Shown one piece after another: positions 3 through 63,845 of a stretch of DNA of 64,000 nucleotides. The translations under genes were made by a program, and so were the position numbers. Every line of letters starts with the position of its first letter. Positions within the stretch are counted from its first letter, which is position 1. This DNA comes from Morchella semilibera (Eukaryota > Ascomycota > Pezizomycetes > Pezizales > Morchellaceae), in assembly GCA_009192285.1 (NCBI GenBank), contig WBVU01000004.1, positions 4,610,001 through 4,674,000 on the forward strand. Reading direction: 5' to 3'. The notes beneath the pieces are model-generated. The model was given only the letters and a program-made list of their open reading frames with translations. It made no database searches and was not told where the DNA came from.

Positions 3-139
3 CAGCAGTAAGACTGCATTTGTCTCCTGATGTCTCCTGAGTCCCAGGAGACTCAAAAAATATTTGGAAGTCTCAGGAGACTTTCAGGAGACCCGGGAGA
101 CTGTTGGGAGACTCCAGTCACAAGTTGAGTTTGCTGATG
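3..139 (+). mobile_element. 137-bp foldback MITE, copy 1
   Basis: A slightly diverged member of the 137-bp family whose usual ends are CATCAGCAA and TTGCTGATG. The inside is a run of GGAGACT/AGTCTCC iterations with a near-palindromic TCTCCTGAG..CTCAGGAGA core. The copy is flanked by a 2-bp AA duplication (1-2 and 140-141). It abuts a decayed LTR-A piece. Confidence 0.85.
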
Positions 140-1167
140 AACAATCCAGTATAACTCATATGTCCGCTTCTAGAAACCCATGGAAATCCATCCCAACCAC
201 ACCTCCTATTCCTCCCCACCATCTTACCAAAACCTATTACCAATCCTACCTGCAACTGAACCTCATAGAATCTAATGACTACAACCTCATTTGATCTCAC
301 CCCATCTTCACTTAATATAACTCTATCTATAACAACAGTGCTATGACTGCCGAATCATCTGGACCAATGCCAATATGCTGAGACATACGGCCACTATTTA
401 ATACCCTCCTTCGCCAGTTCAATATGACTTATACATTAGTCCATAGAAACTCATCAAAACTGACTGTAACTACATTTCAGATTTCTCCTCACCATCTTAC
501 TAAATTCTATTACTAATCCTCTTTGCAACCGTAACTTATAGAACCTACTGACGTAAACCTCACTTTCTATCACGGAGCGAAGCGGGGACGAACACAGAGA
601 GAGCCAAGATACACAACCGAGGTAGGGCGAGACAGGGCGGAGTAGGTAGTGCAAGGTAAGACAACCGAGAGGCTGTTGGACGAGAGGCAAAGCGAGGCTA
701 AACTGGGGAACAAGACAAAGCTATAGATTCTCTTCTTCCTTCCAGGAAGTAGGAACGGGGAAACTCAATAATAGTAAGAGGTCCTAAGCTCTATATTTGA
801 CTTAAAGGACAAGAAGGTTGCGTGAAGGGGGAGGGGAAGGAAGAGAATACCTACAAGCGAGGGAGAGCGCTCCCTATATATAGCCCCAAAATCCCTTCGC
901 TGACTCATACCATAGAACCCCATAGAACACAAAAAAAAACTCTTCTATTACAAATACATGCACGACGTTGACTCAAAGAACCCCTGCTCAGAAACTCATA
1001 GAACACCATAGAAAAACCCTTGACTAATCCTTCTTCCCGCAACATCACTCCGTACGCTCCACGCCGTTATACTTTCTCTCATCCGCTCCTCGCTTAACCT
1101 TTCTCCATTAACCACAACAGCACTAAGACTACCGAATTCTCCAGTCCGATGCCAAGACGGCGGAACA
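140..1167 (-). mobile_element. Decayed LTR-A pieces (Ty3/gypsy LTR) with nested LTR-C
   Basis: Two diverged LTR-A pieces lie head to tail, ending near 385 and near 1167. They are recognised by the recurring blocks CCACACCTC.TATTCCTCCCCACCATCT, ATCACGCCATCGAACCTCCTAGAA-like and GATGCCAAGACG.CGGAACA. The second piece is interrupted by an LTR-C. Strand is given in the sense of the parent gypsy element. These are old fossils. Confidence 0.7.
568..1071 (+). mobile_element. Solo LTR-C with 5-bp target duplication
   Basis: A 504-bp element beginning TATCACGG and ending CCGTTATA, flanked by perfect CTTTC duplications (563-567 and 1072-1076). It contains a TATA-like CTATATATAG and the downstream block ACTCATACCATAGAA shared with the other LTR families here. 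Size, 5-bp duplication and promoter-like content suggest a solo LTR, although the ends are not TG..CA. I do not know the parent element. Confidence 0.75.
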
Positions 1168-2141
1168 CATAGTATACTGAATGTTTCTTCCCTTTTTTTT
1201 AAAAAAAAAAGGAGGTATTTCAATGTAGATTTTAGTTTAACTCTGAAACTACTACAAGAGATAGTATCCATTGTCATATATCATATGAGTTCTATATCTA
1301 TGAGTTGTCATCGTTATTTTAATTTTACTAAACCATTTCTGTGTTTTATGCAGCTCATTAGTCCAACAGTTGACAGACTTTGGACAGAATGCCAAGCCTT
1401 TTCTATCGGTCCATGGACTGGCTTGGCAACTTAGACTGCAGTCAACTACAGTTGGACAGGACGGTTGTCAGTCCAGGCACTGCCTTAGCCTGCTTCGCTC
1501 TTCGCCTCGCTTTGCCCGGTGATAAGAGCAAATAACAGCAGAATAGTTTAATTCCTACTTACGGCTGTATTGTTTGACAAGCTGTTCGTATTTGAAGTCG
1601 GTCTCGTTGATGTTCATTGGTCTCGACGTTGTTTGTTGGTTGCCATGCCACATCACGAGAACTTTTGTCACCTGCCATACCTCATCACGATCAAAAACGG
1701 GGTTGATCAAAATGGGGTTTTTTTTTTTTACGAATTCTTGGTTCCCAAACGGGCCCACTGTTTTTTTTTGTCTTAGTCTTATCTTAGCGCACACTTTGAG
1801 TACATTTTGGCATAAACCGTACTAGAACAGCCCTAAGTATCTACGGTAGTCTTCCTTTTTTTCCTTTAATATCCAACTGGAACATTTTCTCGTAGGGAAA
1901 ATTTCCGTTGTGTAATCTTGTGCTATGAAATTTTGCCTGTTATATTGCACTAGCTAGATGAGGAATCGATACGTGTACTGATGATGTGCCTACTCAAACA
2001 CTGATACATATGACCGCCAAACAAAACGAGGGATGTATGAAAAATGACACAAGTGAGATAAAGTTGAGATTCATCCTATTGAAAACGAATATAGAAAAAG
2101 GTAGCATGAGGAATATCATTAATCATGCAAGACCTTAGGTT
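1168..2141. other. Intergenic, no gene recognised
   Basis: AT-rich DNA with homopolymer runs (T8/A10 near 1192-1210) and a few short GTCCA/TGGAC inverted pieces around 1360-1475. Short frames near 1555-1825 show no recognisable domain. It lies between the LTR pile and the 3' end of the hydrolase-like gene. Confidence 0.5.
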
Positions 2142-4556: not shown

Positions 4557-5330
4557 TGTCCCGGCGTCTTGGCATCGTTCTGAAGGTTCGGTAGTCAAAG
4601 CGCTGTTACGATTGTTTAGGTATTGCTGAGCGAGGAAGGGGTGTACTGAGGAAGGAGTGTCCGAGTCGTCATTGAGTTCTAGGAGGTTCGGTGGCGTGAT
4701 GGATTTGTAATGCAAATAACAGAGATGGTGGAGAAGAATACGAGGTGTGGTTGTGATAGATTTCTATGGGTTTTTATAAGCTGATGTATGAGTCATAGCA
4801 GACTGGTGGAAGAAAGGTGTTAAATAGCGTGTATAGATGTTTTCCTTAGTTCTTTCTTTCTGTTCTCTCTGTCTCGTCTTCCTGTTTATGTCGGTACATA
4901 AGAATATATTCCTATCTTAAGCCATAGTTAATCAGCAAACTCAAATTGTGACTGGAGTCTCCCAACAGTCTGCCGAGTCTCTTGAGAGTCTCCTGAGACC
5001 CCTGAATATCTTTTGAGTCTCCTGAGGCTCAGGAGACATCAGGAGACAAATGAAGTCTTGCTGATGTTCCTCGTATCCAAGACTCTGTTCTCCTTAGAGG
5101 AAATCTATAGTATCTCTCATCGTTCTCGTTGATGTCAATCTGGTCCTCACTCTCCCTATCCGGTACTCTTTCTCTTTCGCCTTTGCCTTTACCTTCATCG
5201 ATGCCTGTGCTTGTGCCTGCCCAGTGTTGTTTCTGTTTTCATCAATATCCTCGTTGGGTTGAGTGTGCTCCTCGAGTACATCTGCATCATCATTGTCATC
5301 TTCTACTTTACGTCGGGTTACTTTGTCACA
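4557..5330 (+). mobile_element. Solo LTR-A, 5-bp target duplication, carrying a MITE
   Basis: Starts TGTCCCGGCGTCTTGG and ends TTTGTCACA, flanked by perfect ATGAG duplications (4552-4556 and 5331-5335). It is about 635 bp once the MITE at 4930-5066 is subtracted, matching the other copies. A TTAAATAG block precedes the presumed transcription start. Confidence 0.88.
4930..5066 (-). mobile_element. 137-bp foldback MITE, copy 2
   Basis: A reverse-orientation copy of exactly 137 bp within the solo LTR-A, with 2-bp TT duplications on both sides. The first base of the usual CATCAGCAA end is A here. Confidence 0.88.
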
Positions 5331-6576: not shown

Positions 6577-6852
6577 CATCAGCAAACTGAACTTGTGCCA
6601 GCAGTCTCCCAACAGTCTCCCAAGTCTCCTGAGAACATCAGCAAGACTTCATTTGTCTCCTGATGTCTCCTGAGCCTCAGGAGACTCAAAAAATATCCAG
6701 GAGTCTCAGGAGACTCTCAGGAGACTTGGGAGACTGTTGGGAGACTCCAGTCACAAGTTGAGTTTGCTGATGAATCTCTTGAGACCCCTGGATATTTTTT
6801 CAGTCTCCTGAGGCTCAGGAGACATCAAGAGACAAATGAAGTCTTGCTGATG
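6577..6852 (-). mobile_element. 137-bp foldback MITE, outer copy of a MITE-in-MITE
   Basis: A reverse copy starting CATCAGCAAACTGAAC at 6577 and ending CTTGCTGATG at 6852. It is interrupted by a complete forward copy. Removing the inner copy and one 2-bp duplication leaves exactly 137 bp. Its outer flanks (TT and AG) do not match, so one side has been rearranged. Confidence 0.85.
6636..6772 (+). mobile_element. 137-bp foldback MITE, inner copy
   Basis: A complete 137-bp copy inserted in the middle of the copy at 6577-6852, with AA duplications at 6634-6635 and 6773-6774. Direct evidence of self-insertion. Confidence 0.9.
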
Positions 6853-7005: not shown

Positions 7006-7777
7006 TGTGACGGAGTAACCTGACAACAAAAAGAAGATAACAATGATGACGCAGAAGGACCCGAGGAGCAGAGCCTAAATGACGAGGAAACTGACGAAGA
7101 CAAGGATAACGCCGGGCCGGCATATGCGCAGACACCGGCGAAGGCAAAGGCAAGCGCAAGGGCAGAAGGGCACAGAGCAGGGAGAGTGAGGACCGGATGG
7201 ACCTCAACGAGAACGATGAGAGGTACTATGAGTTTCCTCTTTTTAGAGGATCAAGTCTTTGGTACGAGAGGCTATGGCTTAGAAATAGGAGTAGATTCCT
7301 ATGTACCGAGATAACAGGAAGAAGAGACAGAGAGAAAAGAAAGAAAGAACTAAGGAAAATATCTATCCCCGCTATTTAACACATCTCCTTCACCAGTCCG
7401 CTATGACTCACACTTTCACTCATAGAATCTCATAGAAACCCTTCGCAACCACACCTCGTATTCCCCTCCACCATCTTAGCTATTTACATTACCAATCCGT
7501 CACGCCACCAAACCTCCTAGAACCCAATGACGACACCCCCCCTTTAGCACACCTCTTTCCTCGCTTAACCATTCCTAAACAATTGCAACAGCACTTCGAC
7601 TACATCAGCAAGACTTCATTTGTCTCCTGATGTCTCCTGAGCCTCAGGAGAATCAAAAAATGTACAGGAGTCTCAGGAGACTCTCAGGAGACTTGGGAGA
7701 CTGTTGGGAGACTCCAGTTACAAGTTGAGTTTGCTGATGTACTGAGCACTCGGGACTGATGCCAATACGCCGAGATA
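7006..7777 (-). mobile_element. Solo LTR-A inserted in gypsy integrase
   Basis: Reads TGTGACGGAGTAACC to GCCGAGATA on the plus strand. Perfect CGGTT duplications lie at 7001-7005 and 7778-7782. It is about 633 bp without the MITE at 7602-7739. The insertion into the integrase region shows that fossil 1 is older than this LTR. Confidence 0.9.
7602..7739 (+). mobile_element. 137-bp-family MITE, copy in solo LTR-A
   Basis: A forward copy of 138 bp with a TA duplication (7600-7601 and 7740-7741). It interrupts the conserved CGACTACCGAACCCTCGGG block of LTR-A. Confidence 0.9.
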
Positions 7778-7782
7778 CGGTT

Positions 7783-9655
7783 ACAAGATCTATTGTAATA
7801 TATCCGTCCAAGGTCCCTTAGGTACTGATAGTGGTCGCAGGACTCCTTGAAGAGGATTATGATTCGCTTTGCTCCTGCGACAAGTATGGCAATTCTGAAC
7901 ATAGCGGTCTGTATATTTCCGCATGGTCGGCCAATAATAGTTCTGACTCAGTAGTTCCAATGTCTTTGATCGTTCCGGGTGTCCAGCAAAGGGTTTATTG
8001 TGGTATTCCCGTAGCAAGTAAAGCTTGAGTTCGTCATTGTCAGGAACATAGAGTGTATTCCGGTAAAGCAGTAACCCCTCCTTGCTTCCTTTGCACTCAG
8101 CCAACAAAATCTCTTTCGATTGTCGAACGCCGTCCCGGGGCATGGATAAAACCTTACTTGGAAAACTATCACACTGGTAAGCCTTGTGAAATAAATCGAG
8201 TACAGGAGACAATCCTTCAGCGGGTTCATTTGACAAAAAGCCCGCTAACAAATCTATCTTTGAATCTAAATTCTCTTTCTTCAAAACCACTCGACTTTGT
8301 TGTTCCAGTCTCTCATCCCCTCCTTGAGTAAATCCTTATGCCTTCGGGTCAGAATATCAACCTTCCTTCCCTGCTTCCCTGGTCTATATTGAATAACAAA
8401 ATTAAACCGAGACAAGAACTCCGCCCAGCGAGTTTGACACCGATTTAGCAATTTGGTTGACAGAAAATACTCAAGATTGCGATGATCTGTAAGTACTTTT
8501 ACTTGGAATTGAGCTGTCTCCAGATGAGGTCTCTATTCCTCAAAACAACGAATAATAGCCAACAACTCCTTGTCATAAATCTTATTATTACACTCCGCAG
8601 GTCAGTGTGTCTTAGAGAAGAACGCGACTAGTTGCAAAATCCCTCCGTCATCACGTTGTGATAATATTCCTGCCGACACATAATCCGACGCATCGGTTTC
8701 CACAAAAAGTTCTTTCTCAAGATCAGGGTGCATCAATACTGGGGCAGTGGTGAAAGCAGTCTTGAGTTTTTGAAAGGCTTGTTCAACTCTCTGAGTCCAC
8801 TCAAATTGTACATGCATCTTCGTCAAGGCAGTCAAGAGCTGAACCACTTAGGAGTAAGCGTAAATAAAGCGTCGATAAAAATTAGCAAACCCAAGAAATT
8901 CCTGAACCTTCTTTACTGTCTTCGGGGCATCCCAGTCCACAATCGTTTGTACCTTAGTAGGATCTATTTTTTATTCCTCCAAGGGTCAGAATCATCCCCA
9001 AATATTTTGTTTCTTGCACACTGAATTCGCACTTCTCTGATTTTAGGTGGACCTCATTGGCTTCCTGGGCTTCGTGCACTTGTTGTACATCCTGTTGATG
9101 CTGTTCCAAAGTTTCCGAATAAATAAGAATATCATTAAGGTAGGCAGTCGCACAACGATCCAAGAAAGGCCGGTGAATATCATTAATCCAGCGTTGGAAG
9201 ATTGCGGGCACATTGGTTAAACCAAAAGGCATCACTAGATACTTCCAATGTCTATAGCGCGTCCTAAAGGCCGTCTTCCACTCGTCACCCTCTTTAATCC
9301 TAATCTGATTATAGCCCCATCGTAGATCCAACTTGGTAAAATAATTCGCCCGTGCTAGATTGGCCATAGTTTCCGGTGTCAAGGGAAGAGGATACTTATC
9401 CTTGACCATAATAGCATTAAGCTACCGATAGTCAACGCACAAACGTAAGGACCCATCAGCTTTCTTAACGAATAAAACAGGAGCGCCGGCTGGAGAACTG
9501 CTAGAGCAGAGAAATTCCTTATGTAGGTTATTGGCCAAGTAGTTTATTAGAGCCTTCAATTCTTCCCTGGACATGCTATACATGGGGCCAAAAGGTGGCA
9601 TAGTCCCTTCTTGCAATTTTATCTCATGATCATAGGGACGATGTGGCGGTAGCCT
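7783..9655 (-). mobile_element. Gypsy pol region: RT, RNase H, integrase zinc finger
   Basis: On the minus strand, the RT region shows [20 protein letters not shown] and [20 protein letters not shown]. RNase H-like sequence follows ([20 protein letters not shown]). The integrase N-terminal zinc-binding region reads YHNKPFAGHPERSKTLELL then YVQNCHTCRRSK. Order and motifs are those of Ty3/gypsy pol. The reading is interrupted in several places; treat as a fossil. Confidence 0.85.
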
Positions 9656-9792
9656 CATCAGCAAGACTTCATTTGTCTCCTGATGTCTCCTGAGCCTCAG
9701 AAGACTAAAAAAATATCAAGGAGTCTCAGGAGACTCTCAGGAGACTAGGGAGAATGTTGGGAGACTGCAGTCATAAGTTGAGTGTGCTGATG
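9656..9792 (+). mobile_element. 137-bp foldback MITE in gypsy pol
   Basis: A complete 137-bp forward copy between the RT and protease parts of gypsy fossil 1, with CT duplications (9654-9655 and 9793-9794). Confidence 0.9.
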
Positions 9793-10442
9793 CTGGACGC
9801 ATTGGTTTCATCGAATAATTGTCGAAACTGCTGATAATATATCGGAATCATTCCATCTGGGTTGGCAGGCATTTCCAATATTTTATTAACAGCATATAGA
9901 GTAGTCGAGTAAACCTGAACAGTAGGGTCGTAGGAGAGTTTCTTAAATGATCGAGGAGTAACTGCTGAAATATGTGTAACCGGCCTTTTGGGTGGTGGAG
10001 TTAAAATCCCCCGAGCAACAATAGGTTTGTGGTTGGCTATACAATGTTCAAGAAATACTGATGACTGGAAGCGAATATCATTCCTTCCACTATCAATCAA
10101 GACTCCATGCTTCCTCATCCACAATATTCCCATCACGATCGGATAATGCCCTAATTTTGTAACAAAGAAAGGACATTCCTCCACATGTCCATTTATTTCC
10201 AGCTCGAGCGTAACCTTCTTGGTCACCTTCCCTGATTCAATCGGCCTTCCATCAATCACATCAATCTCCCTCTCAGTCTTCAAATTTTTCATCTTCAGTT
10301 CATGGCGGCGCACAAAGTCTTCATCAATAAATGCATATCCTGACGCTCCCATATCAATCAAGGCATAAGTGGGTACAATAGATTTTTTATTTTGTGAAAT
10401 AGAGCAGACTACAATAAATTGATTCCCATCCATCTCCCCTTC
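9793..10442 (-). mobile_element. Gypsy protease-like region
   Basis: The minus-strand reading contains SIVPTYALIDMGASGYAFID and HYPIVMGILWMRKHGVLID, the arrangement of a retroelement aspartic protease between gag and RT. It is bounded by the MITE on the left and LTR-B on the right. Fossil. Confidence 0.7.
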
Positions 10443-10939
10443 CATCACGGCTCCGCCTCCTGCACCTCGCCTGCCGGCAAGGCGTCTTCGGAACAGGGTT
10501 GTTGGATAGTATCGGTCGATGTCGGAAGTAGAATGAGGGATTAGGAAGGAGCTCGGGTAATGGAATGTAAGCGCTAGGAAGGATTGGGTAGTAACGGATA
10601 GAATTGGGGTTATTGGGAATAGTATAGGGGGTACGGGAGTGTAGTAGTTTCTATGGGATTCCATGGTATGAGTTATTGGTGCGGGGGGATAGTTATATAT
10701 ATAGTGCTCGTTCTTTCCTATGTTTTTGCCTCTCTAGGCAACGTCTTCTTTCTGTTAGCAATCTATTACTTTGGCTTCGGCCCTTCTGTCTACGCCCCGA
10801 ACCTGAACCTGGACCTGAACCAGCCTCGCCTCAGGTGTATCCTGAGCCGACCCTGTCCTGCATCTGTTCCTGGAAGTTACTCCGCCTCGCCTCTGAAGAT
10901 CACCCTGTCTTGCCCCTGAAGCCCACCCCGCCCGTGAAA
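10443..10939 (-). mobile_element. Solo LTR-B inside gypsy fossil 1
   Basis: A 497-bp element starting CATCACGGCTCCGCCTCC and ending CCCGTGAAA, flanked by CCTTC duplications (10438-10442 and 10940-10944). It matches the copies at 45890-46363 and 27956-29333 and carries a TATATATAG promoter-like block. Solo LTR of a second family. Confidence 0.85.
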
Positions 10940-11206: not shown

Positions 11207-11343
11207 CATCAGCAAACTCAACTTGTGACTGGAGTCTCCCAACAGTCTCCCAGGTCTCCTGAGAGTCTCCTGAGACTTCTGGATATTTTTTGAGTCTTCT
11301 GAGGCTCAGGAGACATCAGGAAACAAATGAAGTCTTGCTGATA
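11207..11343 (-). mobile_element. 137-bp foldback MITE in gag
   Basis: A reverse copy of 137 bp with TT duplications (11205-11206 and 11344-11345). The terminal G is A here. Confidence 0.88.
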
Positions 11344-11633: not shown

Positions 11634-11769
11634 CATCAGCAAACTCAACTTATGACTGCAGTCTCCCAACTGTCTCCCGGGTCTCCTGAGAGTCTCCTGA
11701 GACTCCTGAATATTTTCGAGTCTCCCGAGGCTCAGGAGATATCAGGAGACAAATGAAGTCTTGCTGATG
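11634..11769 (-). mobile_element. 137-bp-family MITE in gag (second)
   Basis: A reverse copy of 136 bp with TG duplications on both sides (11632-11633 and 11770-11771). Confidence 0.88.
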
Positions 11770-12589: not shown

Positions 12590-13358
12590 TGTGACGGAGT
12601 AACCTCATCAGCAAGACTTCATTTGTCTCCTGATGTCTCCTGAGCCTCATGAGACTCAAAAAATATCCAGGGGTCTCAGGAGACTCTCAGGAGACCCAGG
12701 AGACTGTTGGGAGACCTCAGTCACAAGTTGAGTTTGCTGATGCTGACGCAAAGTAGAAGATGACAATGATGACGCAGGAGGACTCAAGGAGCACAGCCTA
12801 TGCGATGAGGAGACCAATGAAGACAAAAACGGCGCCGAGCAGTCACAAGCACAGGCGCCGGCAAAGGCAAAGGCAAAGGCAAGGGCACAAGGTAATAGAG
12901 TAGGGAGAGTGAGGACCAGATGCACCTCAGCGAGAACAATGAGAGGTACTATGGGTTTCTTTAGCAGAGGACAGGATATTGGGTGTTCGGAACTATGGAT
13001 TGAGGATAGGAGTATATTCCTATGTACCGAAATAACAGGAAGACGAGACAGAGAGAAAGGAAAGAAAGAACTAAGGAGAACATCTATCCCCGCTATTTAA
13101 CACTTCTCCTCCACCAGTCCGCTATGACTCATACATCAGTTCATAGAAACTCACACAAATCCGTCACATCCACACCTCGTATTCCTTTCCACCATCTCTG
13201 CTATTTACATTACCAATCTATCACGCCATCGAATCTCCTAAAACTTAATGACGACACCACCCTTTTAGTACACACCTTCCTCGCTTAGTCATACCTAAAC
13301 AATCACAACAGCGCTTCGACTACCGAACCCTCGGGACTAATTCCAAGACGCCGGGACA
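12590..13358 (-). mobile_element. LTR-A at the gag-proximal end of gypsy fossil 1
   Basis: Begins TGTGACGGAGTAACC exactly where gag-side sequence ends and finishes GACGCCGGGACA. The same junction occurs at 45457/45458. It is 630 bp when the MITE is removed. It is followed at once by part of an opposite-orientation LTR-A (13359-13513). Confidence 0.85.
12606..12742 (+). mobile_element. 137-bp foldback MITE near an LTR-A end
   Basis: Exactly 137 bp, with CT duplications (12604-12605 and 12743-12744), sitting 16 bp inside LTR-A. Confidence 0.9.
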
Positions 13359-15314: not shown

Positions 15315-15916
15315 TATCACTGAGCAAAGCGAGGACAAGGGCGAGAGGTGGCAAGGTACACAACCAAGGCGGAACGAGGCGAGGCAAATAGGTACGAGAC
15401 TTAGGCAAGGTAAAGAGTAGGCTGCGAGGACGAGGGACAGAGCGAGGCGGGGTTACGAGGCGAGGGCTATGGGATTTCCTCCTACCTCCGAAAGGCTAGG
15501 AGCGGGGGAAAACTTCAGAGTAACTAGTGATCCTAAAGCTTTGTATTGGCTAAAGGATAGGAAGGTTGCGTAAAGAAGAAAGGAAAGAAAGAGAATCCCT
15601 ACAACATCAGCAAGACTTCATTCGTCTCCTGATGTCTCCTGAGCCTCAGAAGACTTGGGAGACTGTTGGGAGACTGCAGTCATAAGTTGAGTTTGCTGAT
15701 GAAGCGAGGGAGAAAGCTCCCTATATATAGCCCCAAAATCCCTTCGCTGACTCATACCATAGAACCCCATAGAACACAAAAAAAACTCTTCTATTAGAAA
15801 TACATGCACAGCGTTGACTCATATAATCCCTACTCAGAAACTCATAGAACACCATAGAGAACTCCTGACTAATCCTTCTTCCCGCAACATCACTCCGTAC
15901 GCTCCACGCCGTGATA
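15315..15916 (+). mobile_element. Solo LTR-C inside a Tc1/mariner copy
   Basis: Starts TATCACTGAGC and ends GCCGTGATA, with CCTTC duplications at 15310-15314 and 15917-15921. About 503 bp after subtracting the nested MITE. It has the CTATATATAG and ACTCATACCATAGAA blocks. Confidence 0.88.
15605..15701 (+). mobile_element. Internally deleted foldback MITE (97 bp)
   Basis: Both ends of the 137-bp family are intact but about 40 bp of the middle is missing. AA duplications at 15603-15604 and 15702-15703 show that it inserted as a unit or was deleted later. Confidence 0.88.
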
Positions 15917-18530
15917 CCTTCATCCCCATAAGATTTGGATTATATTCTACTATAGCTTCATCTGTCCAAACAATTCGTCTCCACCATCTCAAATTCTATC
16001 TCCGTCTCTTTGCATACCATAAAGTTTTTTTCTGCTTCCTCTCTGCTGTAAAATAAGGCTTGCAACGGCGTATCTTGAATGTAACTTGAAAACCAATGCT
16101 TTTCAGTGCTTTATTTATCGTGTCTTTTGATGCTTAGATATTGAATTAGGAGGCTACTTTTCAAATATCTCGTAGAGGTAGAGTAGGTTGATCCTCAACT
16201 ATAAGTTCTAGAGTTCTTTTATCCTTGTCTGATAGTAGGGGTGGATGGCCTGAGCGGGGTGCATCTTTGGTATGATCTCGTTCTTCATATCTGTTGATGA
16301 CTTCACTGACTGTACTCCTAGGAATTCCTGTGACCTTATGGATTTTATTGCCAGAGTAATTAAGATCATGAAGAGTAACAATAGCCCTCCTCTTATCCTC
16401 CCTACTGTAATTCCTAATCCTTTTGTTGGGGGGCATCGTGGGGTTGTGGGGTTGTGATCGATCGTTGCGCGAGGGGGGCATTGCTTGGTGGGGCTCAGGA
16501 AACTTCATAGACACGGCTGTACAGGACCGGCTTGAAAAGAGAAAGGAGTGTGAACGCTGTAGGATAAAGTTGAGAAAAGAAGGAAGTAAAGGTAGGCGTG
16601 CTCCTACATCATATTTTAGGTGTAAACCCTGTAGATTTATACTATGTCGCACTTGCTTTGTAGATTATCACCGTACTACATAGTCTTATTCGATATATTC
16701 TTGAATCGCTCGTTGCCTAGCACTGAATCTGATATCATATAACGGGGTAGTAAGGGTGCACGGTCCAGGTCGCGAATTGATAGAAAATCCTGACTAATTC
16801 TTTTTCCCGCAACATCGCTAAATACATTTCACACCGTGATAAATATCTGCTAGATTCGCTGCTTGATTAACTCCTTGAATATTTGCTACATGAATATTCG
16901 CTGCTTGTTTCGCTGTTTGATTCGCTGCTTGAATTTACTACTTGACTCTATGTTCAGTGCGGTACTTGTTTAGACTTGCTGCCTAATTCACGGATTAGCT
17001 CATAAAAGATCAGTAGAGGTAAAGAGCTAACGGGGGTGTAGCAATACAGGTGTGGAGATGGAGGTGTGGAGAGAGGAAAGATGTGATATCTCTAAGTCCC
17101 CAGCCCTAACCCCGAACTGCTTACAGTTTTTGACAACTCTTTTCCTTCATATATGATTCTCTCCAAAAGACCATTAATTATGCCTTAACGGGCTCTAAAT
17201 GGGCACCAAATATAATCTTCTTCCTCTTCCTTTTGGGTTCAACTAACTTATGGTCTTTTCGAAATTAAGTCTTTTTAAACCATGCCGTAGTATTAATGCT
17301 CAAATTCATACTTATAGAAATATCCGGACTGGCGCTAACGTAAGTATCCTACTGGCATTATATGTATATTCGTATGTATATAGAGGGTAATAGACTCAAG
17401 GCCCGTTTGGCAACAGGCCAAAACGGAGTTTTCAACCCTGTAAACTCCCCTTAGTCCTTAGAGACACTATTTTGTCTAGTTGCTAACGGGCTCTGGGTCT
17501 GTGATTAGGAATCGGCTCTGCGTAGTACTTTAGGTACTGTTTGTTATGCAGGGGTGGGGCTAGATGTAGGGAACGACAGAAATCTGGTTATTTAACCTTT
17601 CAATATGATAATATGATGTAGTAGCACATCGAAAGTATGATGCTCCAAATCCCCAGACATCAATCCTCAAAAATTTACATGTATGCATGCAATTCTATCA
17701 TAATTGGGACACGTCGCATACAAACCCCTATTATGACAGCAACGACTCAAATTAGCTAAAGAGGTGTCTGACAGCTCAAACGGAAGTTCTATAGGAGAAA
17801 CTTCAGCGTTGTCGATACTTCTGGTTACCAGCGTGTGGTGGACCCTTTGGTGAGGATTGAGGTGTAAAGAGAGGGATCTCCTAGCTGTTTAATCCTATCC
17901 GTCCCCAACCCTGCAACCATGTTTGATCACTATTTCAGCAATTAAGTTCTTCCCAAAGATAGTAGGACATTGGGACCAAAAGGTGATTTGTCTGTGGTTA
18001 CGAAAAAAGCGGTGTCAGAGCTTCTAGGCTAGGGGTCCTTTTTTCTTTCTCCCTTTTTTTTTTTCACTGCGAACGGATTCCAGTGGAGTGAATTCAATCT
18101 ATCCCCCCTATTGACAATGAAAACACGAATCAAACCCCTGCTCTGAATTGATTGAGTAGAATTAGAAGGTGATGACCGTTAATATGTATTCAGAGACTTG
18201 GTTGGGGTGCTTCAAGATGCCGAGATAAGAGTGTTGGCGTGATCCCTTGACTCCGCTCTCTCCCTTTTGCTCTCATTTTCATGTGGTTCAGGCTTCCTGG
18301 GCGGCGAGCATAAAGGCAGGTAGGTTGCCTCCTTCTTTTATGTTCCCGATTGCAGAAGAGAAGAAGAAAATTAGGATGGTGATCATAATATGGTCCGCTG
18401 TGTCATGGGAGGTTATTGAAGTTGTGGAGTCTAAGTGCAATACTTACTGTACATGTCCTCTACTTGTGCGTGTTATAGTACCCCCAAATCTAGAGATTTT
18501 GCAGTATTGGCATTACCAGTGTAAGATGTA

Positions 18531-26076: not shown

Positions 26077-26849
26077 TGTGACGGAGTAACCCGATGCAAA
26101 GTAGAAGATGAAAATGATGACGCAGAAGGACTCGAGGAGCACAGCCTTCGCGACGAGGAGATTGACGAAGACGGAAACAACATCCGGATCAGCAAACTCA
26201 ACTTATGACTAGAGTCTCCCAACAGTCTCCCGGGTCTCCTGAGAGTCTCCTGAGACTCCTGGAGATTTTTTGAGTCTCCTGAGACTCAGGAGACATCAGG
26301 AGACAAATGAAGTCTTGCTGATGCCGAGCAGGCACAAGCACAGGTACCGGCAAAGGCAAATGCAAGAGCAAGGGCACAAGGGTGCAGGGCAGAGAGGGTG
26401 AAGACCGGATGGACCTCAACAAGAACGATGAGAGGTACTATGAGTTTTCCTCTGAAAGAGGACAGAATCTTGGAAGCGAGGAACTATGGCTTGGAACTAG
26501 GAGTATATTCCTATGTACCGAGATAAGAGAAAGACAAGACAGAGAGAAAAGAAAGAAAGAACTAAGGAAAACATCTATACCCTCTATTTAACACCTCTTC
26601 TCCACCAGTCCGCTATGACTTACACATTCGCTCACAGAAACTCATAGAAATCCGTCGCAGCCACACCTTGTATTCCTCTCCACCATCTTGCCAATTCCTA
26701 TTACTAATCCATCACGCCATCGAACCTCATGGAACATAATAACGACATCCTCACCTAATCTCACCCTATCCTCTCTTAATGTAACTCCAGCTATCGCAAC
26801 AGCGCTACGACTACCAAACCATCGGGACCGATTCCAAGACGTTGGGACA
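26077..26849 (-). mobile_element. LTR-A carrying a MITE
   Basis: Reads TGTGACGGAGTAACCC to GACGTTGGGACA. About 634 bp without the MITE. The flanks TTCAG and TTTTA do not match. Confidence 0.8.
26187..26323 (-). mobile_element. 137-bp foldback MITE in LTR-A
   Basis: A reverse copy of 137 bp inserted in the ACACCGGGCAGG block. The first base is G, and the 2-bp flanks are imperfect (CG and CC). Confidence 0.82.
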
Positions 26850-26994: not shown

Positions 26995-27052
26995 AACAAC
27001 TTGAAGACCTCATTTGTCTTCTGATGTCTCCTGGGCGTCAGGAGACTCAGGT
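26995..27052 (+). mobile_element. Foldback MITE 5' fragment
   Basis: Contains CTTGAAGACCTCATTTG and TCTGATGTCTCCTGGGCG, a diverged left third of the 137-bp family. The remainder is absent. Confidence 0.6.
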
Positions 27053-27099: not shown

Positions 27100-27216
27100 C
27101 ATCAGCAAACTCAACTTGTAACTGTAGTCTCCCAATAGGCTCCTGAGACTCCTGGATATTTTTTGAATCTTATGAGGCTCAGGAGACATCAGGAGACAAA
27201 TGAAGTCTTGCTGACA
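27100..27216 (-). mobile_element. Internally deleted foldback MITE (about 117 bp)
   Basis: A reverse copy from CATCAGCAAACTCAAC to CTTGCTGACATG lacking about 20 bp of the AGTCTCC iterations. It lies between two small LTR-A pieces. Confidence 0.75.
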
Positions 27217-27881
27217 TGGTTAAATTGAGTTGCTACAAGTTTCTATAGGCTGATGTATCAGTTATATAGTACTGGCAAAGGAGGATGGTAAATAGAGGAT
27301 GTAGATCTTTTCCTTAGTTTTTTTTTTTTTTCTTCGTTTCGTATTCCTGTCATCACAGTACAAGGTAATATACATCTATTCATAGCGATAGTTATTTCGC
27401 TTACAAATTCGCCTTCACAGAAGTGACTCTATGGTTTCTCCTCATCTTTTCCTGAGGTCCTTACCTGATCCTCACTTTCCCTGCCCTGTTCTTGGTTTTA
27501 TCTTTGCCTTTGCCTTTGCCGATTCGTTGCGCTTCCATTAGCACTGTCTGTATCTCTCGATCGCGTCTGTGTCACTATCTTCCATCAGCAAAACTTCATT
27601 TGTCTCCTGATGTCTCCTGAGGCTCATATGTCTCAAAAAATATACAGGAGTCTCAGGGGACACTCAAGGAAGCTGGTAAACCATTGGGAGAGTCCAGTCA
27701 CAAGTTGAGTTTGCTAATGTAATATATCTTATGGTTTATATTAAGGTCCATTTAGTCCTCACTCTCCCAGCCTCATGCCCTCTCGGTGTTCTCATCCTTG
27801 TCAGTATTGTAGTTGTGCTGGCTTGATTCCTCGAGTCCTTTTTCGTCTTCCATTACCTTGCCTCTTAGTTACCCCGTTACA
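27217..27881 (+). mobile_element. LTR-A, 5' LTR of gypsy fossil 2
   Basis: A diverged plus-orientation LTR-A ending TTAGTTACCCCGTTACA, immediately followed by gag-side sequence (ATTAAAACGAGACC) as at the other gypsy junctions. Its left part is incomplete. A MITE is nested at 27583-27719. Confidence 0.7.
27583..27719 (+). mobile_element. 137-bp foldback MITE
   Basis: A forward copy of 137 bp, more diverged than most, ending TTTGCTAATG. The flanks TC and TA do not match. Confidence 0.82.
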
Positions 27882-28202: not shown

Positions 28203-28965
28203 TGTCCCGACGTCTTGGCATCTGTCCCGACCGTTTGGTAGGCAATGCATAGTTGTGGTTGTTAGGGCAATGCTAAGCGAGGGTAGGGAGTGCGAGGTGG
28301 AGGTTCTCGTCATAGGTTTCTAGGAGGTTCGGTAGCGTGATGGATTTATAATGTAAATAGCGGGGATGGTGTGGAGGATTACGAGGTGTGGTAGCGATGA
28401 GGTTCTATGGGGTTCTATGGATGATGATATGTGGTCTTGGACTGGTGGAAGCGGTGTGTTAAATAGCGGGGATAGATGTTTTCCTTAGTCCTTTCTTTCT
28501 TTCCTCTCTGTCTCGTCTTCCTGTCATCTTAGTACATAGGAATCTACTCTCCAAAGCCATAGCCTCTCGTATCTAAGATTCCGTCCTCCAACGAGGAACA
28601 CCATAGTACCTTTTATCGTTCTCGTTGAGGTCCATTCGGTCCTCACTCTCTCTGCCTTGCGCTCTTGTGCCTTTGCCCTTGCCTCTGCCTTCGTCAGTGC
28701 CTGTGCCTGTGGCTGCCCGGCATCAGCAAGACTTCTTTTGTCTCCTGATGTCTCCTGAGCCTCAGGAGATTCAAAAAATCTCCAGAAGTCTCAGGAGACT
28801 CTCAGGAGACCCGGGAGACTGCTGGGAGACTGCAGTCATAAGTTGAGTTTGCTGATGGGTGTTGACTCTGTCTTCGTCAGTTACCTCGTCACGTAGACTG
28901 TGCTCCTTGAGTCTATCTGCGTCATCATTGTCATATTCTTCTTTGCGTCGGGTTACTCCGTCACA
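28203..28965 (+). mobile_element. Solo LTR-A nested in LTR-B
   Basis: Begins TGTCCCGACGTCTTGG and ends GTTACTCCGTCACA, with GGAAA duplications (28198-28202 and 28966-28970). It contains a MITE. Confidence 0.9.
28721..28857 (+). mobile_element. 137-bp foldback MITE, third nesting level
   Basis: A forward copy of exactly 137 bp with GG duplications (28719-28720 and 28858-28859), in an LTR-A that sits in an LTR-B that sits in gag. Confidence 0.9.
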
Positions 28966-28994: not shown

Positions 28995-29131
28995 CATCAG
29001 CAAACTCAACTTGTGACTGGAGTCTCCCAACAGTCTCCCGGGTCTCCTGAGAGTCTCCTGAGACCCCCGGATATCTTTTGAGTCTCCTGAGGTTCAGGAG
29101 ACATCAGGAGACAAATGAAGTCTTGCTGATG
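28995..29131 (-). mobile_element. 137-bp foldback MITE in LTR-B
   Basis: A reverse copy of 137 bp with TC duplications (28993-28994 and 29132-29133), between the nested LTR-A and the right part of LTR-B. Confidence 0.9.
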
Positions 29132-29986: not shown

Positions 29987-30755
29987 TGTGACGGAGGAAC
30001 CCGACTCAAAGAAGAAGATGATAATGATGACGCAGAAGAACCCGAGGAGCACAGTCAAGCGACGAGGAAACCAACAAGGACAAAGGCAACACCGGGCAGG
30101 CACAAGCACAGGCACCGGCGAAGGCAAAGGCAAGGGCATGGGCACAAGGGCGCAGAGCAGGGAAAGTGAGGACCAGATGGACCTCAAAGAGAACAATGAG
30201 AGATACTATGAGTTCCTTCTCGTCGGAGGATCGAGTATTTGCTACGAGAGGCTTATGGCTTAGAAATAGGAGTAGATTCCTATGTACCGAGATAACAAGA
30301 AGACGAGACGAAGAGAAAAGAAAGAAAGAATTAAGAAAAACATCTATTCCCACTATTTAACACACCTCCTCCACCGGTCCGCTATGACTCACACTTTTAC
30401 TCATAGAACCCCATAGAAAACCATCGCTGCCACACCTCGTATTTCTCCCCACCATCTCCACCATTCACATTACCAATCCATCACGCCATCGAACCTCCTA
30501 GAACCCAATGACGACACCCCCCTCCATCAGCAAACTCAACTTATGACTGCAGTCTCCCAACAGTCTCCCGAGTCTCCTGAGAGTCTCCTGAGACTCCTGG
30601 AGATATTTTGAGTCTCCTGAGGCTCAGGAGACATCAGGAGACAAATGGAGTCTTGCTGATGTCAGCATACCTTCTCCTCGCTTAACATTACTCGAACGAC
30701 TACAACAACCCTTCGACTACCGAACCCTCAAGATTGCTGCCAAAACACCGGGACA
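29987..30755 (-). mobile_element. Solo LTR-A in gag of gypsy fossil 2
   Basis: Perfect ATGAT duplications (29982-29986 and 30756-30760). About 630 bp without the nested MITE. Its orientation is opposite to the gag it interrupts, so it is not that element's own LTR. Confidence 0.9.
30525..30661 (-). mobile_element. 137-bp foldback MITE in solo LTR-A
   Basis: A reverse copy of 137 bp with TC duplications (30523-30524 and 30662-30663). Confidence 0.9.
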
Positions 30756-30846: not shown

Positions 30847-30983
30847 CATCAGCAAAACTTCATTTGTCTCCTGATGTTTCCTGAGCCTCAGGAGACTGAA
30901 AAAATATGCAGGAGTTTCAGGAGACTCTTAGGAGACACAGGAGACTATTGGAAGACTCCAGTCACAAGTTGAATTTACTGATG
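30847..30983 (+). mobile_element. 137-bp foldback MITE in gag
   Basis: A forward copy of 137 bp with flanks AA and AT, interrupting gag sequence of fossil 2. Confidence 0.85.
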
Positions 30984-32087: not shown

Positions 32088-32846
32088 TGTGACGGAGTAA
32101 CCTGACGCAAAGAAGAAGATGACAATGATGACGCAGAAGGACCCGAGGATCACAGCCGAAGCGACGAGGAGACCGACGAAGACAAAGGCAACACCGAGCA
32201 GGCACAAGCACAGGCACCAGCGAAGGCAAAGGCAAGAGCAGGGGCAAAAGAGCGCAAAGGAGGGAAAGTAAGAACCTCAATGAGAACGATGAGAAGTGCT
32301 ATAGTTTTCCTCCCGGCAGAGGATCAAGTTTGTGGTACGAGAGGCTATGGCTTAGAAATAGGAGTAGATTCCTATGTACCGAGATAACAGAAAGACGAGA
32401 CAGAGAGAAAAGAAAGAAAGAACTAAGGAAAATATCTATCCTCGCTATTTAACATCTCCTCCACCAGTCCGTTATGACTCACACTTTTACTCATAGAACC
32501 CCATAGAAAACCATTGCTGCCACACCTCGTATTTCTCCCCACCATCTCTACTATTCACATTACAAATCTATCACGCCATAGATTCTCCTAAAACCTAATG
32601 ATGACACCCCCCTTTCATCAGCAAACTCAACTTATGACTGCAGTATCCCAACAGTCTCCCTGGTCTCCTGAGAGTCTCCTGAGACTCCTGGAGATTTTTT
32701 GAGTCTCCTGAGGCTCAGGAGACATCAGGAGACAAATGAAGTCTTGCTGATGTTAGCACACCCCTTCTTCGCTCAACCATTCTTAAACAATCATAACAGC
32801 GCTTTGACTACCGAACACTTGGGGTTGATGCCAAGACGCCGGAACA
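32088..32846 (-). mobile_element. LTR-A carrying a MITE
   Basis: Reads TGTGACGGAGTAACCTG to GACGCCGGAACA. About 620 bp without the MITE. The flanks do not match, so its insertion site was later rearranged. Confidence 0.82.
32616..32752 (-). mobile_element. 137-bp foldback MITE in LTR-A
   Basis: A reverse copy of 137 bp with TT duplications (32614-32615 and 32753-32754). Confidence 0.9.
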
Positions 32847-47226: not shown

Positions 47227-47362
47227 TATCAGCAAACTGAACTTATGACTGCAGTCTCCCAACTGTCTCCCGAGTCTCCTGAGAGTCTCCTAAGATTCCT
47301 GGGTTTTTTTGAGTCTCCTGAAGCTCAGGACACATCAAGAGACAAATCAAGTCTTGCTGATG
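47227..47362 (-). mobile_element. 137-bp-family MITE
   Basis: A reverse copy of about 136 bp, first base T. The flanks TT and TA do not match. It adjoins a decayed LTR-A. Confidence 0.8.
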
Positions 47363-48369: not shown

Positions 48370-48477
48370 CATCAGCAAGACTTCATTCGTCTCCTGATGT
48401 GTCCTGACTCTCAGGAGACTCTCAGGAGACCCGGGAGACTGTTGGGAAACTCCAGTCACAAGTTGAGTTTGCTGATG
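48370..48477 (+). mobile_element. Internally deleted foldback MITE (108 bp)
   Basis: Intact ends, TT duplications (48368-48369 and 48478-48479), and loss of about 29 bp from the centre. Confidence 0.88.
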
Positions 48478-48533: not shown

Positions 48534-48642
48534 CATCAGCAAGATTTTACAAGTCTCAGGAGATTACAGGGGTATCAGGAGACTCAGGAGACTGTCAGAA
48601 GACTCAGGAGACTCCAGTCACAAATGGTGATGCTTTCTGATG
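48534..48642 (+). mobile_element. Divergent foldback MITE subfamily (109 bp)
   Basis: Shares the ends CATCAGCAAGA...CTGATG and GGAGACTCCAGTCACAA but has its own internal iterations. TG duplications lie at 48532-48533 and 48643-48644. The right end has an additional GGTGATGCTT. Confidence 0.8.
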
Positions 48643-49061: not shown

Positions 49062-49198
49062 CATCAGGAAGACTTCATTTGTCTCCTGATGTCTCCTGAG
49101 CCTCAGGAGACTCAAAAAATCTCCAGGAGTCTCAGGAGACTCTCGGGAGACCCAGCAGACTATTGGGAGACTCCAGTCATAAGTTGAATTTGCTGATG
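49062..49198 (+). mobile_element. 137-bp foldback MITE
   Basis: A forward copy of 137 bp (start CATCAGGAAG). The flanks TT and AG do not match. It lies just before the Harbinger element. Confidence 0.85.
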
Positions 49199-56219: not shown

Positions 56220-56984
56220 TATCAGCAAGATTCCATTTGTCTCCTGAGCTCTCCTGAGCTGTGACGGAGTAACCCGACGCAAAGAAGAAGATGACAATGA
56301 TAACGCAGAAGAACCCGAGGAACACAGTCCAGGGACGAGGAGACTGACGAAGACAAGGGCAACACTGGGCAGGCACACGCACAGGCACCGGCAAAGGCAA
56401 AGGCAAGAGCAAGGGCACCAGGACACAGAGCAGGGAAAGCGAGGACCAAGTGGACCTTAACGAGAACGATGAGAGATACTATGGTTTTCCTCTTGTCAGA
56501 GGATCAAGTATTTGATACGAGAGGCTATGGCTTGGAAATAGGAATAAATTCTTATGTACTGAGATGACAGGAAGACGAGACAAAAGAGAAAAGAAAGAAA
56601 GAACTAAGGAAAACATCTAACCCCGCTATTTAACATTCCCCTCCACCAGTCCGCTATGCATCACCTCATAGAAACCCATAGAAATCCATCACATCCACAT
56701 CTCATATTCCTCCCCACCATCTTCGCTATTTACATTACAAATCTATCACGCCACCGAACCTCCTAGAACCTAATGACGACACCCCCCTTTAGCACACCCC
56801 TTCCTCGCTTAACCATTCCTAAACAATCACAACAGCGCTTCCACTACCGAACCTTCGGGACTAATGCCAAGACGCCGAGACATAAGCCTTAGGAGACTCA
56901 AAAAATATCCAGTAGTTTCAGGAGACTCCCAGGATACCCGGGAGACGGCTGGGAGACTTTAGTCATAAGTTGAATTTGCTGATA
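56220..56984 (+). mobile_element. Foldback MITE split by a solo LTR-A
   Basis: The left part (56220-56259) and the right part (about 56888-56984, ending TTTGCTGATA) flank an LTR-A. Without it, the MITE is about 137 bp. This is the reverse of the usual nesting order. Confidence 0.8.
56260..56882 (-). mobile_element. Solo LTR-A inside a MITE
   Basis: 623 bp, reading TGTGACGGAGTAACCC to GACGCCGAGACA. The 5-bp flanks TGAGC and TAAGC have one mismatch. Confidence 0.85.
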
Positions 56985-59413: not shown

Positions 59414-59550
59414 CATCAGCAAACTCAACTTGTGACTGGAGTCTCCCAGCAGTCTCCCAGGTCTCCTGAGACTCTCCTGAGACCCCTGGATATTTTGTGA
59501 GTCTCCTGAGGCTCAGGAGACATCAGGAGACAAATGAAGTCTTGCTGATG
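59414..59550 (-). mobile_element. 137-bp foldback MITE
   Basis: A reverse copy of 137 bp with AG duplications (59412-59413 and 59551-59552). Confidence 0.9.
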
Positions 59551-60264: not shown

Positions 60265-60277
60265 ATAGTGAGGAAAA

Positions 60278-60508
60278 TATCAGCAACGCTTCATTTGTCT
60301 CCTGATGTCTCCTGAGCCTCAAGAGACTCAAAAGATATCCAGGAGTCTGTCCCAACGTCTTGGCATCAGTCCCAGTGCATCAGTAAACTCAACTTGTGAT
60401 TGGAGTGTCTCACAGGTCTCCTGAGAGTCTCCTGAGACTCCTGTATAATATTTTTTGAGTCTCTTGAGGCTCAGGAGACATTAGGAGATAAATGAAGTCT
60501 TACTGATG
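60278..60508. mobile_element. Two foldback MITE pieces around a 30-bp LTR-A scrap
   Basis: The left half of a forward MITE (60278-60347) meets the first 30 bp of an LTR-A (60348-60377). A nearly whole reverse MITE (60378-60508, 131 bp) follows. The rearrangement order is unclear. Confidence 0.75.
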
Positions 60509-60775: not shown

Positions 60776-62362
60776 CCACTTCCGCTACGGTTGAACATCT
60801 AATTCCCCTCTCAATATGGGCTGAGGCTAATCGGTGAATTAAGCACCAACTGGCAATCCAGTGAATCTAATGATGCACCCAATATAGCGAATCCAGCCCT
60901 CAATCCAGCAAATACCGCACCCAATCCAGCAAATCCAAATGAGCACGCTAGAGGAATCAGACACTGTGCCGCAATGAGCTGTATCATAACGTACCGTACA
61001 GAACATACAATAAAACAGGTAAGCAGGCAAGCCGTTATAGTAGTAGTTTTTAGACATATGTATATAGTATTGAATCATGAAATAAATAAGAATTTAATCT
61101 GTGAAATTTACCTATGCAGAACAAGTGTGAATACTGGCCTACCTGCGCATTTGGTTTTTTCAATGAGTAAAATCAGTATTATATAGGACTTCTTCATGAT
61201 ATCATATGATAAATATCTCAGACTGAGCCAAAAGTTAGCTTCAACGAGGCATGATCATATGAAACGCCAAATCAGCCATATATCCTGTTTAACTACACCC
61301 TATATCAGGCTGATAAAAAGATGTGGACTGGCGGTAAAGTACTTATGCTATCCACAAGTTTTTAAAATCGCCTGTTGGCCTAAAATCTCTACTACCTGTA
61401 TTAAACAATATACACAACATTTTTATGGATATAGTAGATTAAAGAAGACGCTATTGGCTAACTCAGATGACTGTCCTCCGTAACTGGTAACCTTTATTTT
61501 TTTTGTGTCTTGATACCGTTACTGTCAACGCTTTTTTATTGTATAGAATTATCAATATTCAGGAAGAGTACTCGCTGAACGGCTCCCAAAATAGTTAACT
61601 GCGGAAGGAATTTAGCAATTAGTTTATGTTCCTAGGAGTTCATGAAAAGATCAAGCTAAAAAAGGGGTCTGGACGCATAGGTTACTCTGCATACTGCCTG
61701 TAGGAGCGGAGGCGTCAAGCTGGAGAGGTACGGGAGTTTGGAACCTCACTTAGTACAAATCTCTCCACTCATTCTGTAAAGGGAAAGGAAAAAGAGTTAC
61801 TTATACACGGTCTATTTATTCGCTATGTAATACTTACCTATGCTTGGATCGATGCTTTGATTTGTATCATGACGCTAAGTCTCGCTAAGAGGCTACTTTC
61901 AGAATGGAGAGATTTTCCTTCCTAACACGGGTGGAATGTTGTGGTTCTTGGTATTGATTTCGAAACTTTCAAACGAAGTCAGAGCGCCATACCGCGGCAT
62001 ATTGCGAGTTCCTCGGAGTAGGTCAAGTGGAAGAGAATGAGAGGGGGGAATGATGATTGTATTCAACTGAGCGTCCTTAATCACTGTAATATATACTTGT
62101 CTCATCGTATCTAGTTGTCCTCCATAGTATTTCTTGCATGTCTTCCTGAGTGTTTTTATCTCGCGTGACAGACAATACTTAAGTCTTTTATAACACCTGA
62201 GATACTACAGCCTTTTGCTCTTAACCAATTCAATTCGTGGCTATTGGGTAGGAGGTGTTATGGTGAAATAAAAGGCTAGCAATGAGCGAGTTCCTTTGGC
62301 TTTGTGTATCTAGTCCACTTATGCTTTTCGTTCTTCACTTCCGGCGTCTGGCCTTGTATGCG
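60776..62362. other. Intergenic, no gene recognised
   Basis: Near 60850-60945 AATCCAG repeats appear (AATCCAGTGAATC, AATCCAGCCCTCAATCCAGCAAAT). A frame at 61196-61483 (plus, 95 codons) is open but unrecognised. The last few hundred bases probably hold the 3' flank of the ANCHR-like gene. Confidence 0.4.
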
Positions 62363-63441
62363 CTATGTCATATGGGTGTCAGCATGCATTTTAGGATAAT
62401 CAGCAAGAAATGCAGCACCTTCGTATAGGCAGTTCGCACAATATATATCATTTTCGCAGCCGAGGCAACAATATTCGGCATCTTCATTACATATACCTAT
62501 AGAAATGTTCAGTTTTGAGTCACCTAACTGCCACTTTGGCACTGTGCAACGAAAGGAAAAAAGACTTACAGCACCATGTATCAGTCTCATCCACTGAATC
62601 TCTACTGTACACTGGTTTTGGGGGAGGATCTATTATGGGGACTGAAGGGAGCTCTGGCCCTCCTAGAGCTTCAAACCGCCTGATCAGATCTTCATCAGGT
62701 TCTATCGTTTTGGGGGTTGGACACCCCCGCTGGTTACTTTCTCGCCATCTTCCATCCCCCTCCTCATCCAAAATTATGCCATGAGCCTTCTCAAACTCTA
62801 TCTCATCTTTGATCATTTCCAAAATATTCTCCTCCGCGTCTGCATCGCTCTTGGCGTCTTCTTTGAGTGAGTTGTTTCGTAACCAATTTGGCACCAACGT
62901 AGCGACGGTCCCGTTTCGGCCCTCGACCTCTTGAATAGATGTTGATGTTCGTATATCTGAGAGCAGCTGTTCAAGCTGGTTGTCATCAATCTCATCAATC
63001 TCATCAACTGCACATGTCTCTTTTTCTAAACTTAGCGTATTGATGAGCTCCTGGTGAACTGGATTAGAGCTAAAGGTCTCGCCGTTTTCGTGGATCAAAG
63101 ATCAAACCTTTACGGAAACATAATGGCCAGGTTTGTAGTATATATCACCCGTAAACTCTTCTGAGTGAAGCTTAACCTCGTATGCTGGTGACTTCTCGAA
63201 TAGTTTCCTGAAACGAGTGACTAACACGTCCTCATCGTAATCCGGGGGTATGTTATCACCCTTGTCAATGAACGGAGCAGTATTCCTGCAATAATATTCA
63301 AGAGTACGTAATTGTTAATATTACATTTGGCATCTTGATAACTTTGCAACCATGTTATAGAGATAATAGTAGGGGAACGACTTACCCCGAGTCTAAAGAG
63401 TGTCTTAACCTAGCAAGGCGGAGGGCCAGATCATCATCCAT
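62363..63441 (-). CDS. ANCHR/ZFYVE19-like zinc-binding protein, in-frame TGA
   Basis: Three exons on the minus strand (63441-63386, 63285-62570, 62496-62363) with introns of 100 and 73 bp (GTAAGT donors) give 302 codons in one frame. The start MDDDLALRLARLR looks like an N-terminal MIM-type helix, and DEDVLVTRFRKLF may be another. The C-terminus has the B-box-like zinc site WCCICNEDAEYCCLGC followed by YCANCLYEGA. Together these are features of fungal relatives of ANCHR, the abscission/NoCut regulator. Codon 80 (63102-63104) is TGA, in frame, between YVSVKV and SLIHENG. I found no GT-AG intron that removes it. The gene may be a recent pseudogene, have another start, or hold a sequence error. 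Confidence 0.7.
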
Positions 63442-63732
63442 ATGTACTGTAGTTCGGGAGAATTAACAGGTGTGATAGCACGTGCTTAGTACATATAATA
63501 GGTCCCCACAATCTTCTACTATCTACTATAATAACATCGATTTGTGTACTGCTTGGCGGGTTACCCTGCCTGCAGTTAGGTGGCAAGCTGGCCACTCCAC
63601 TAAAAAGAACACTAAGCATAAGACTCTGACACAGCTAGAAATAATTCAATATGGGGACGCCTATAACTGGAGTGTCTCAATGACATGAGTTCATGGCCTA
63701 ATAATAAATCACGTCAACTCTTGGTGCCTGGC
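63442..63732. other. 5' flank of the ANCHR-like gene
   Basis: About 290 bp of unique DNA between the start of the ANCHR-like gene and a MITE. Nothing else seen. Confidence 0.4.
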
Positions 63733-63845
63733 CTGATGTCTCCTAAGCCTCATGAGGCTCAAAAAATATCCAGGAGTCTCAGGAGACTCTCAGGAGACCT
63801 GGGAGACTGTTGGGAGACTCCAGTCACAAGTTGAGTTTGTTGATG
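63733..63845 (+). mobile_element. 5'-truncated foldback MITE
   Basis: Begins inside the family at CCTGATGTCTCCTAAGCC and ends TTTGTTGATG. The first about 24 bp are missing. Confidence 0.8.

Follow-up and report, generated by a model that had tools for sequence, protein, structure and literature searches.

A short repeated element in the window

The window analyzed here is a 64,000-nucleotide stretch of the Morchella semilibera genome (C20:4610001-4674000 of a 56.8-Mb assembly in 23 contigs). Its open frames match a Zn(2)-Cys(6) cluster domain, a PhoD-related phosphatase and DUF2417, and it carries many copies of a non-coding element of 137 bp. A profile built from 15 seed copies located 28 copies or pieces (Table 1), a host copy split by a nested copy being counted as one; this agrees with the figure of about 28 in an earlier note made from the sequence alone. 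As set out below, the element is very probably a non-autonomous, high-copy member of the PlavakaB cut-and-paste DNA transposons, of the miniature inverted-repeat transposable element (MITE) type.

The tips of the element are CATCAGCAA..TTGCTGATG, and GGAGACT/CTCCTGA motifs are repeated just inside them. With at most one mismatch, CATCAGCAA was found 76 times in the window, compared with a mean of 16.1 in 100 shuffles (standard deviation 3.8, largest 24). In the genome a 35-base arm pattern with up to two mismatches matched 851 places, and the first 20 bases of the other arm matched exactly at 514 places; the control gave 0 in both cases.

Copies in the window and at 60 genome loci yielded 94 distinct full copies with flanks. 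The edge copy (3-139) and a 97-bp internally deleted copy (15605) stand outside this set. As many as 84 of the 94 are 137 bp long, as the earlier note had said of nearly all whole copies (136-138 bp); four are of 136 bp, two of 109 bp, and there is one each of 143, 131, 117 and 108 bp. The 84 copies of 137 bp show a median pairwise identity of 94.9% and a mean divergence from their majority sequence of 3.1%, the 13 window copies among them diverging by 2.9-13.9%. The 60 loci were not drawn at random: 30 of them are the top-scoring matches to a single copy of the window, and the other 30 are the exact arm matches that come first on contig C1. Since they favour well-kept copies, an age estimate based on this divergence is biased.

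Four DNA folds, made from three copies (both strands of one of them), gave z values of -3.5 to -6.9. This is in keeping with the name foldback used in the earlier note; perfect inversion of the ends, however, covers nine bases only, which marks the element as a MITE and not as one of the long-armed foldback type. Scans of the window with Rfam (gathering level) and for tRNA produced no match, indicating that no structured RNA family lies behind the fold. The element thus combines the features of a MITE: it is short, non-coding, uniform in length and present in high copy number, with inverted tips and a target duplication.

Some contigs of the assembly form pairs with matching coordinates (C9/C10, C21/C22 and possibly C12/C13), as if both homologues had been kept. 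Two of the loci read, L007 and L008, are identical across 3,137 bp, and L071 and L072 are 99.87% identical across 9,995 bp.

Target duplications and empty sites

An exact 2-bp match was present at the flanks of 80 of the 94 copies, with 5.9 expected by chance, and among lengths of 1 to 10 bp a comparable excess was seen for this one alone. Fifteen of the 16 dinucleotides occur among the 80 duplications. Their use is uneven when both strands are counted: TA was observed 16 times (5.2 expected), CA/TG 20 times (10.1), AA/TT 22 times (13.0) and AC/GT once (8.8). All sixteen perfect duplications that the earlier note had read in the window are present (Table 1).

A paralogous empty site spanning the junction was found for 50 of the 94 copies, such element-free relatives being available because many copies sit inside other repeats. 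The modal difference between filled and empty site was exactly 2 bp in 40 of these 50. When random 137-bp cuts were made in the same records as a control, 48 of 940 had a spanning match and only two of the 48 differed by 2 bp. A direct case is found in the window, where the copy at 6636-6772 is nested in an older copy (6577-6852) that serves as its empty site. The earlier note had proposed such a tabulation, and it brought to light neither a fixed TA nor a comparable longer duplication.

A Plavaka transposon with the same tips

Matches to the Plavaka transposase domain PF18759 number 128 in the genome, and some lie in open frames about 1,000 residues long. At one such locus (L056) the end CATCAGCAAGATTCAAACTCTCTCC lies 2,035 bp downstream of the domain, and the sequence outward of it is the interior of a 137-bp copy. 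From this right junction, taken as one side of an insertion that had duplicated the two bases TC, a left junction reading TGACTGNAGTC followed by CATCAGCAA was predicted; the prediction was written down before the search. Three places in the genome matched it within two mismatches and one matched exactly, at C1:1925517, with side and strand as expected. The exact match sets the bounds of a Plavaka element of 10,661 bp at C1:1925528-1936188. It contains the Plavaka transposase domain, has the ends CATCAGCAAG..CTTGCTGATG with the tip CATCAGCAAG at both ends, and lies within a 137-bp copy, flanked by a duplication of TC. When the flanks were joined with one TC removed, they aligned without gaps to bases 7-137 of an intact window copy (119 of 131 positions matching). 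The host copy is without its first six bases, where another repeat abuts. The earlier note had proposed a search for an autonomous element with such ends, and this element is a candidate for it.

Genome-wide, the right end of this family was found at 46 places and the left end at 39. Pairing of the ends by coordinates gave 24 elements, of which 18 are at least 9 kb long (14 of the 18 with a listed Plavaka domain). The other six, of 152, 294, 305, 326, 1,097 and 3,674 bp, carry no Plavaka domain and are candidates for natural internal deletions. A correctly oriented domain lies no more than 3.5 kb inside 21 of the 46 right ends, at 2.0-2.1 kb in 11 of these, while a Plavaka domain of any kind was seen on the outer side of a single right end. 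In one decayed Plavaka fragment (L053), split over two separate frames, the metal-binding motifs are not clear. The TET/JBP domain, which is reported for some PlavakaB elements, has 11 matches in the genome, four of them above cut-off, and by manual comparison of coordinates none falls within the 24 paired elements.

The 1,097-bp element (C20:4674135-4675231) starts 135 bp past the right edge of the window and has two Plavaka ends and no listed transposase domain. The places of TET/JBP dioxygenase matches include C7:461686 and C6:1734168.

Similarity inside the tips and the choice of driver

The interior of the 137-bp element was compared with the subterminal regions of the Plavaka family. Against the right region the Smith-Waterman score was 45, the maximum among shuffles being 27; against the left region similarity was weaker, with a score of 33 that was reached by one of 200 shuffles. 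In control comparisons a stretch of a CACTA element was reached by 18 of 200 shuffles, and three stretches of the window by 140, 200 and 30. Beyond the tip, the left arm of the element matches the right end of the Plavaka family (a likeness that 0 of 2000 shuffles reached). The element and the family have tip and duplication length in common, and only the left arm is clearly alike, so that the class of the driving transposase is well supported and the exact family is not.

Another Plavaka lineage, lost or not yet seen, with ends equal to both arms of the 137-bp element, is accordingly a real possibility as the driver in place of the 10-13-kb family, though we lean against it. The likeness to the 10-13-kb family is limited to the left arm. 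Moreover, the 128 domain matches merge into about 72 places, only 14 of them inside paired elements, and from this it follows that other Plavaka lineages exist in the genome. On the other hand, the 10-13-kb family would be a sufficient driver because of the shared tip, the shared 2-bp duplication, the subterminal similarity and the short derivatives, and inspection by eye showed none of the Plavaka domains of contig C1 bracketed by the arms among the matches listed. A search for CATCAGCAAGACTTCATTTG followed by any base except T, aimed at non-MITE elements with the left arm, gave seven places, among them one or more mutated 137-bp copies.

CACTA-type elements make 2-3-bp duplications, and the domain of canonical CACTA transposons, Transposase_21, occurs at 25 genomic places, long open frames being present at several of them. 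We nevertheless consider it very unlikely that a transposon of this kind drives the 137-bp element. A multi-copy CACTA family, found at three places and on a near-duplicate contig (L069/L073, L071/L074), resembles it in its related transposase class, CA..TG ends and short duplication; its ends, however, are CACTATGG..CTCGGTG, and the two copies with both ends read have 3-bp duplications (ACT and AGG). The subterminal region of this family was, as given above, no more similar to the 137-bp interior than expected by chance. An inverted-end search of five other 10-kb Transposase_21 loci revealed no terminal CATCAGCAA pair, about 16 of the 25 places lying outside this reading. The Transposase_21 loci that were read were rejected as a source, the five 10-kb stretches being without convincing terminal inverted repeats and the three-copy family being canonical CACTA. 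Membership of the 137-bp element itself in canonical CACTA/EnSpm was likewise rejected, its copies having other ends and duplications of 2 rather than 3 bp.

At one Transposase_21 locus (L066) adjoining repeats that start with CATCAGTAAA resemble the tip, and no duplication-flanked end was found there. At 7684-8340 of the same locus, units starting with CATCAGTAAARTCGTTAGCAAAAC are repeated beside the Transposase_21 frame, like CACTA subterminal repeats.

That the element is a Tc1/mariner-type MITE with target slippage has almost no probability, as the earlier note had also concluded from the variable duplications: TA is the commonest single duplication, and a window frame (16164-16664, minus strand) matches helix-turn-helix domains of the Sleeping Beauty transposase type weakly, below Pfam cut-offs, but 64 of the 80 duplications are not the TA that this superfamily requires.

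Probable assignment to PlavakaB

PlavakaB elements have CATCA..TGATG termini and 2- or 3-bp duplications (Kojima 2025, PMC12730594), while PlavakaA elements have TGT..ACA termini and 2-bp duplications, and Plavaka as a whole is grouped with relatives of CACTA/EnSpm (PMC12730594). The 137-bp element is read as a passenger of Plavaka because it has the same tips and the same 2-bp duplication as a much larger Plavaka transposon in the same genome. Assignment to PlavakaB is supported by three published features of that group, all found here: the termini, in the 137-bp copies and at both ends of the Plavaka element; the 2-bp duplication, in the copies, in the empty sites and in one Plavaka copy (TC); and PF18759 in most of the paired elements of at least 9 kb. 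The suggestion of the earlier note that CACTA-like elements might be related was close, since PMC12730594 places Plavaka with the CACTA/EnSpm relatives; canonical CACTA of this genome has other ends and longer duplications, as described. Its further suggestion that the family may be undescribed has to be revised, given that the enzyme class is present in the same genome and the termini of PlavakaB are published. Most likely the element is a new member of a known, recently defined group and not a new kind of transposon.

According to the mechanism that we propose, a Plavaka transposase made elsewhere in the genome would act in trans on the 137-bp element. It would bind the tips and perhaps also the GGAGACT/CTCCTGA repeats just inside them, which may serve as binding sites. 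The element would then be cut out and inserted where the target strands have been cut 2 bp apart, and repair of this stagger would leave a 2-bp duplication of almost any sequence.

Several observations weigh against this interpretation. Movement itself was not observed, and cut-and-paste transposition by a Plavaka transposase is deduced from DNA sequence. The exact duplication is absent in 14 of the 94 copies, including seven full-length copies of the window (Table 1), and ten of the 50 empty-site cases deviate from 2 bp, with a difference of one base in four copies and six other patterns in one copy each. The left arm does not match the left end of the Plavaka family beyond chance (304 of 2000 shuffles), and the likeness of the right arm to the two Plavaka ends stops after the first nine or ten bases (428 and 555 of 2000). 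Among the arm matches listed, about 100 places, none belonged to a Plavaka element carrying the arms of the 137-bp element. Finally, the duplication of the Plavaka family was read in one copy only, and no unbroken full-length Plavaka gene is among the family sequences read.

The element shares with published PlavakaB its CATCA..TGATG termini, 2-bp duplications and PF18759 relatives in the same genome. It differs in being tiny and non-coding, the published families having been reconstructed from Agaricomycotina, and in showing an excess of 2-bp duplications only, where 2 or 3 bp are published (PMC12730594). With PlavakaA it has the 2-bp duplications and the Plavaka domain class in common, the termini being different (PMC12730594). 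The MITEs of Mycosphaerella graminicola are also short and non-coding with inverted repeats, and nine families there have 2-bp duplications; each of those families, however, keeps to one dinucleotide (TA for eight families and CT for the ninth), in contrast to the 15 used here (PMC4522978). The genome of Marasmius oreades likewise contains Plavaka elements, and its non-autonomous families were classed by tips and duplications common with autonomous ones; the accessible parts of these papers describe no 137-bp Plavaka MITE (PMC8290104, PMC9674265). In the accessible literature on Plavaka/PlavakaB, on MITEs and on Tuber, with supplements and Repbase outside the search, the 137-bp family was not found, and a literature text search for CATCAGCAA gave a sole match, in an unrelated plant-breeding review.

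Tentatively, and with somewhat more doubt than belief, we suggest that this is the first described burst of a PlavakaB MITE. It would comprise hundreds of 137-bp copies with a strict 2-bp stagger and GGAGACT recognition, landing in each other and in long terminal repeat (LTR) retrotransposons, possibly through a Plavaka lineage so far unseen and other than the 10-13-kb family.

Copies in the window

The copies and pieces in the window are listed in Table 1. The insertion that splits the copy at 56220-56984 occupies 56260-56880 and, as judged by eye, has TGTGACGG..GAGACA ends and a duplication of about 5 bp with one mismatch; its TGTGACGGAGTAAC repeat also flanks the copy at 12606. A second 109-bp relative, with the same tips and the same other interior as that at 48534-48642, was found at L036 (2129-2237). 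The left arm of the window 109-bp relative resembles the right end of the Plavaka family (20 of 2000 shuffles). Pieces of a retrotransposon lie on the minus strand at 7793-10733, with integrase zinc-binding, reverse transcriptase and aspartyl protease matches in separate frames.

Table 1. Copies and pieces of the 137-bp element in the window. Fractions give spanning matches with a 2-bp gap.
Feature	Position	Strand	Duplication	Empty sites and remarks
137-bp copy	3-139	+	AA (1-2 / 140-141)	first bases CAGCAGTAA
137-bp copy	4930-5066	-	TT	paralogous empty site, 2-bp difference
older copy, split	6577-6852	-		split by the 6636-6772 copy; its empty-site host
137-bp copy, nested in another copy	6636-6772	+	AA	116/118
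137-bp copy	7603-7739	+	TA	32/32
137-bp copy	9656-9792	+	CT	7/7
137-bp copy	11207-11343	-	TT	3/3
136-bp copy	11634-11769	-	TG	2/2
137-bp copy	12606-12742	+	CT	57/59
97-bp copy, internally deleted	15605-15701	+	AA	
137-bp copy	26187-26323	-	no exact 2-bp duplication	one terminal base altered
fragment	27003-27050	+		
117-bp copy, decayed	27100-27216	-	none exact	
137-bp copy, diverged	27583-27719	+	none exact	
137-bp copy	28721-28857	+	GG	50/61
137-bp copy	28995-29131	-	TC on + strand	7/10
137-bp copy	30525-30661	-	TC on + strand	0/69, contrary to the rule
137-bp copy	30847-30983	+	none exact (AA / AT)	
137-bp copy	32616-32752	-	TT	mixed, 6/51
136-bp copy	47227-47362	-	none exact	
108-bp copy, internally deleted	48370-48477	+	TT	
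109-bp relative	48534-48642	+	TG	same tips, different interior
137-bp copy	49062-49198	+	none exact	
copy, split	56220-56984	+		split by ~620-bp insertion resembling a solo LTR (TGT..ACA; LTR reading by eye)
137-bp copy	59414-59550	-	AG on + strand	mixed, clean gap in 2/35
fragment	60279-60348	+		
131-bp copy, decayed	60378-60508	-	none exact	
5'-truncated copy	63731-63845	+		

Significance

PlavakaB is recently defined and little studied, and it gains here a concrete system with a tiny, high-copy substrate, in which many paralogous empty sites fix the stagger at 2 bp. The system also offers a possible autonomous partner, several copies of which are nearly identical, and putative natural deletion derivatives in a series of sizes, so that binding and cutting by a Plavaka transposase would become testable. 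A MITE with a seemingly "wrong" duplication may be placed by looking in the same genome for elements that carry a transposase domain between identical tips.

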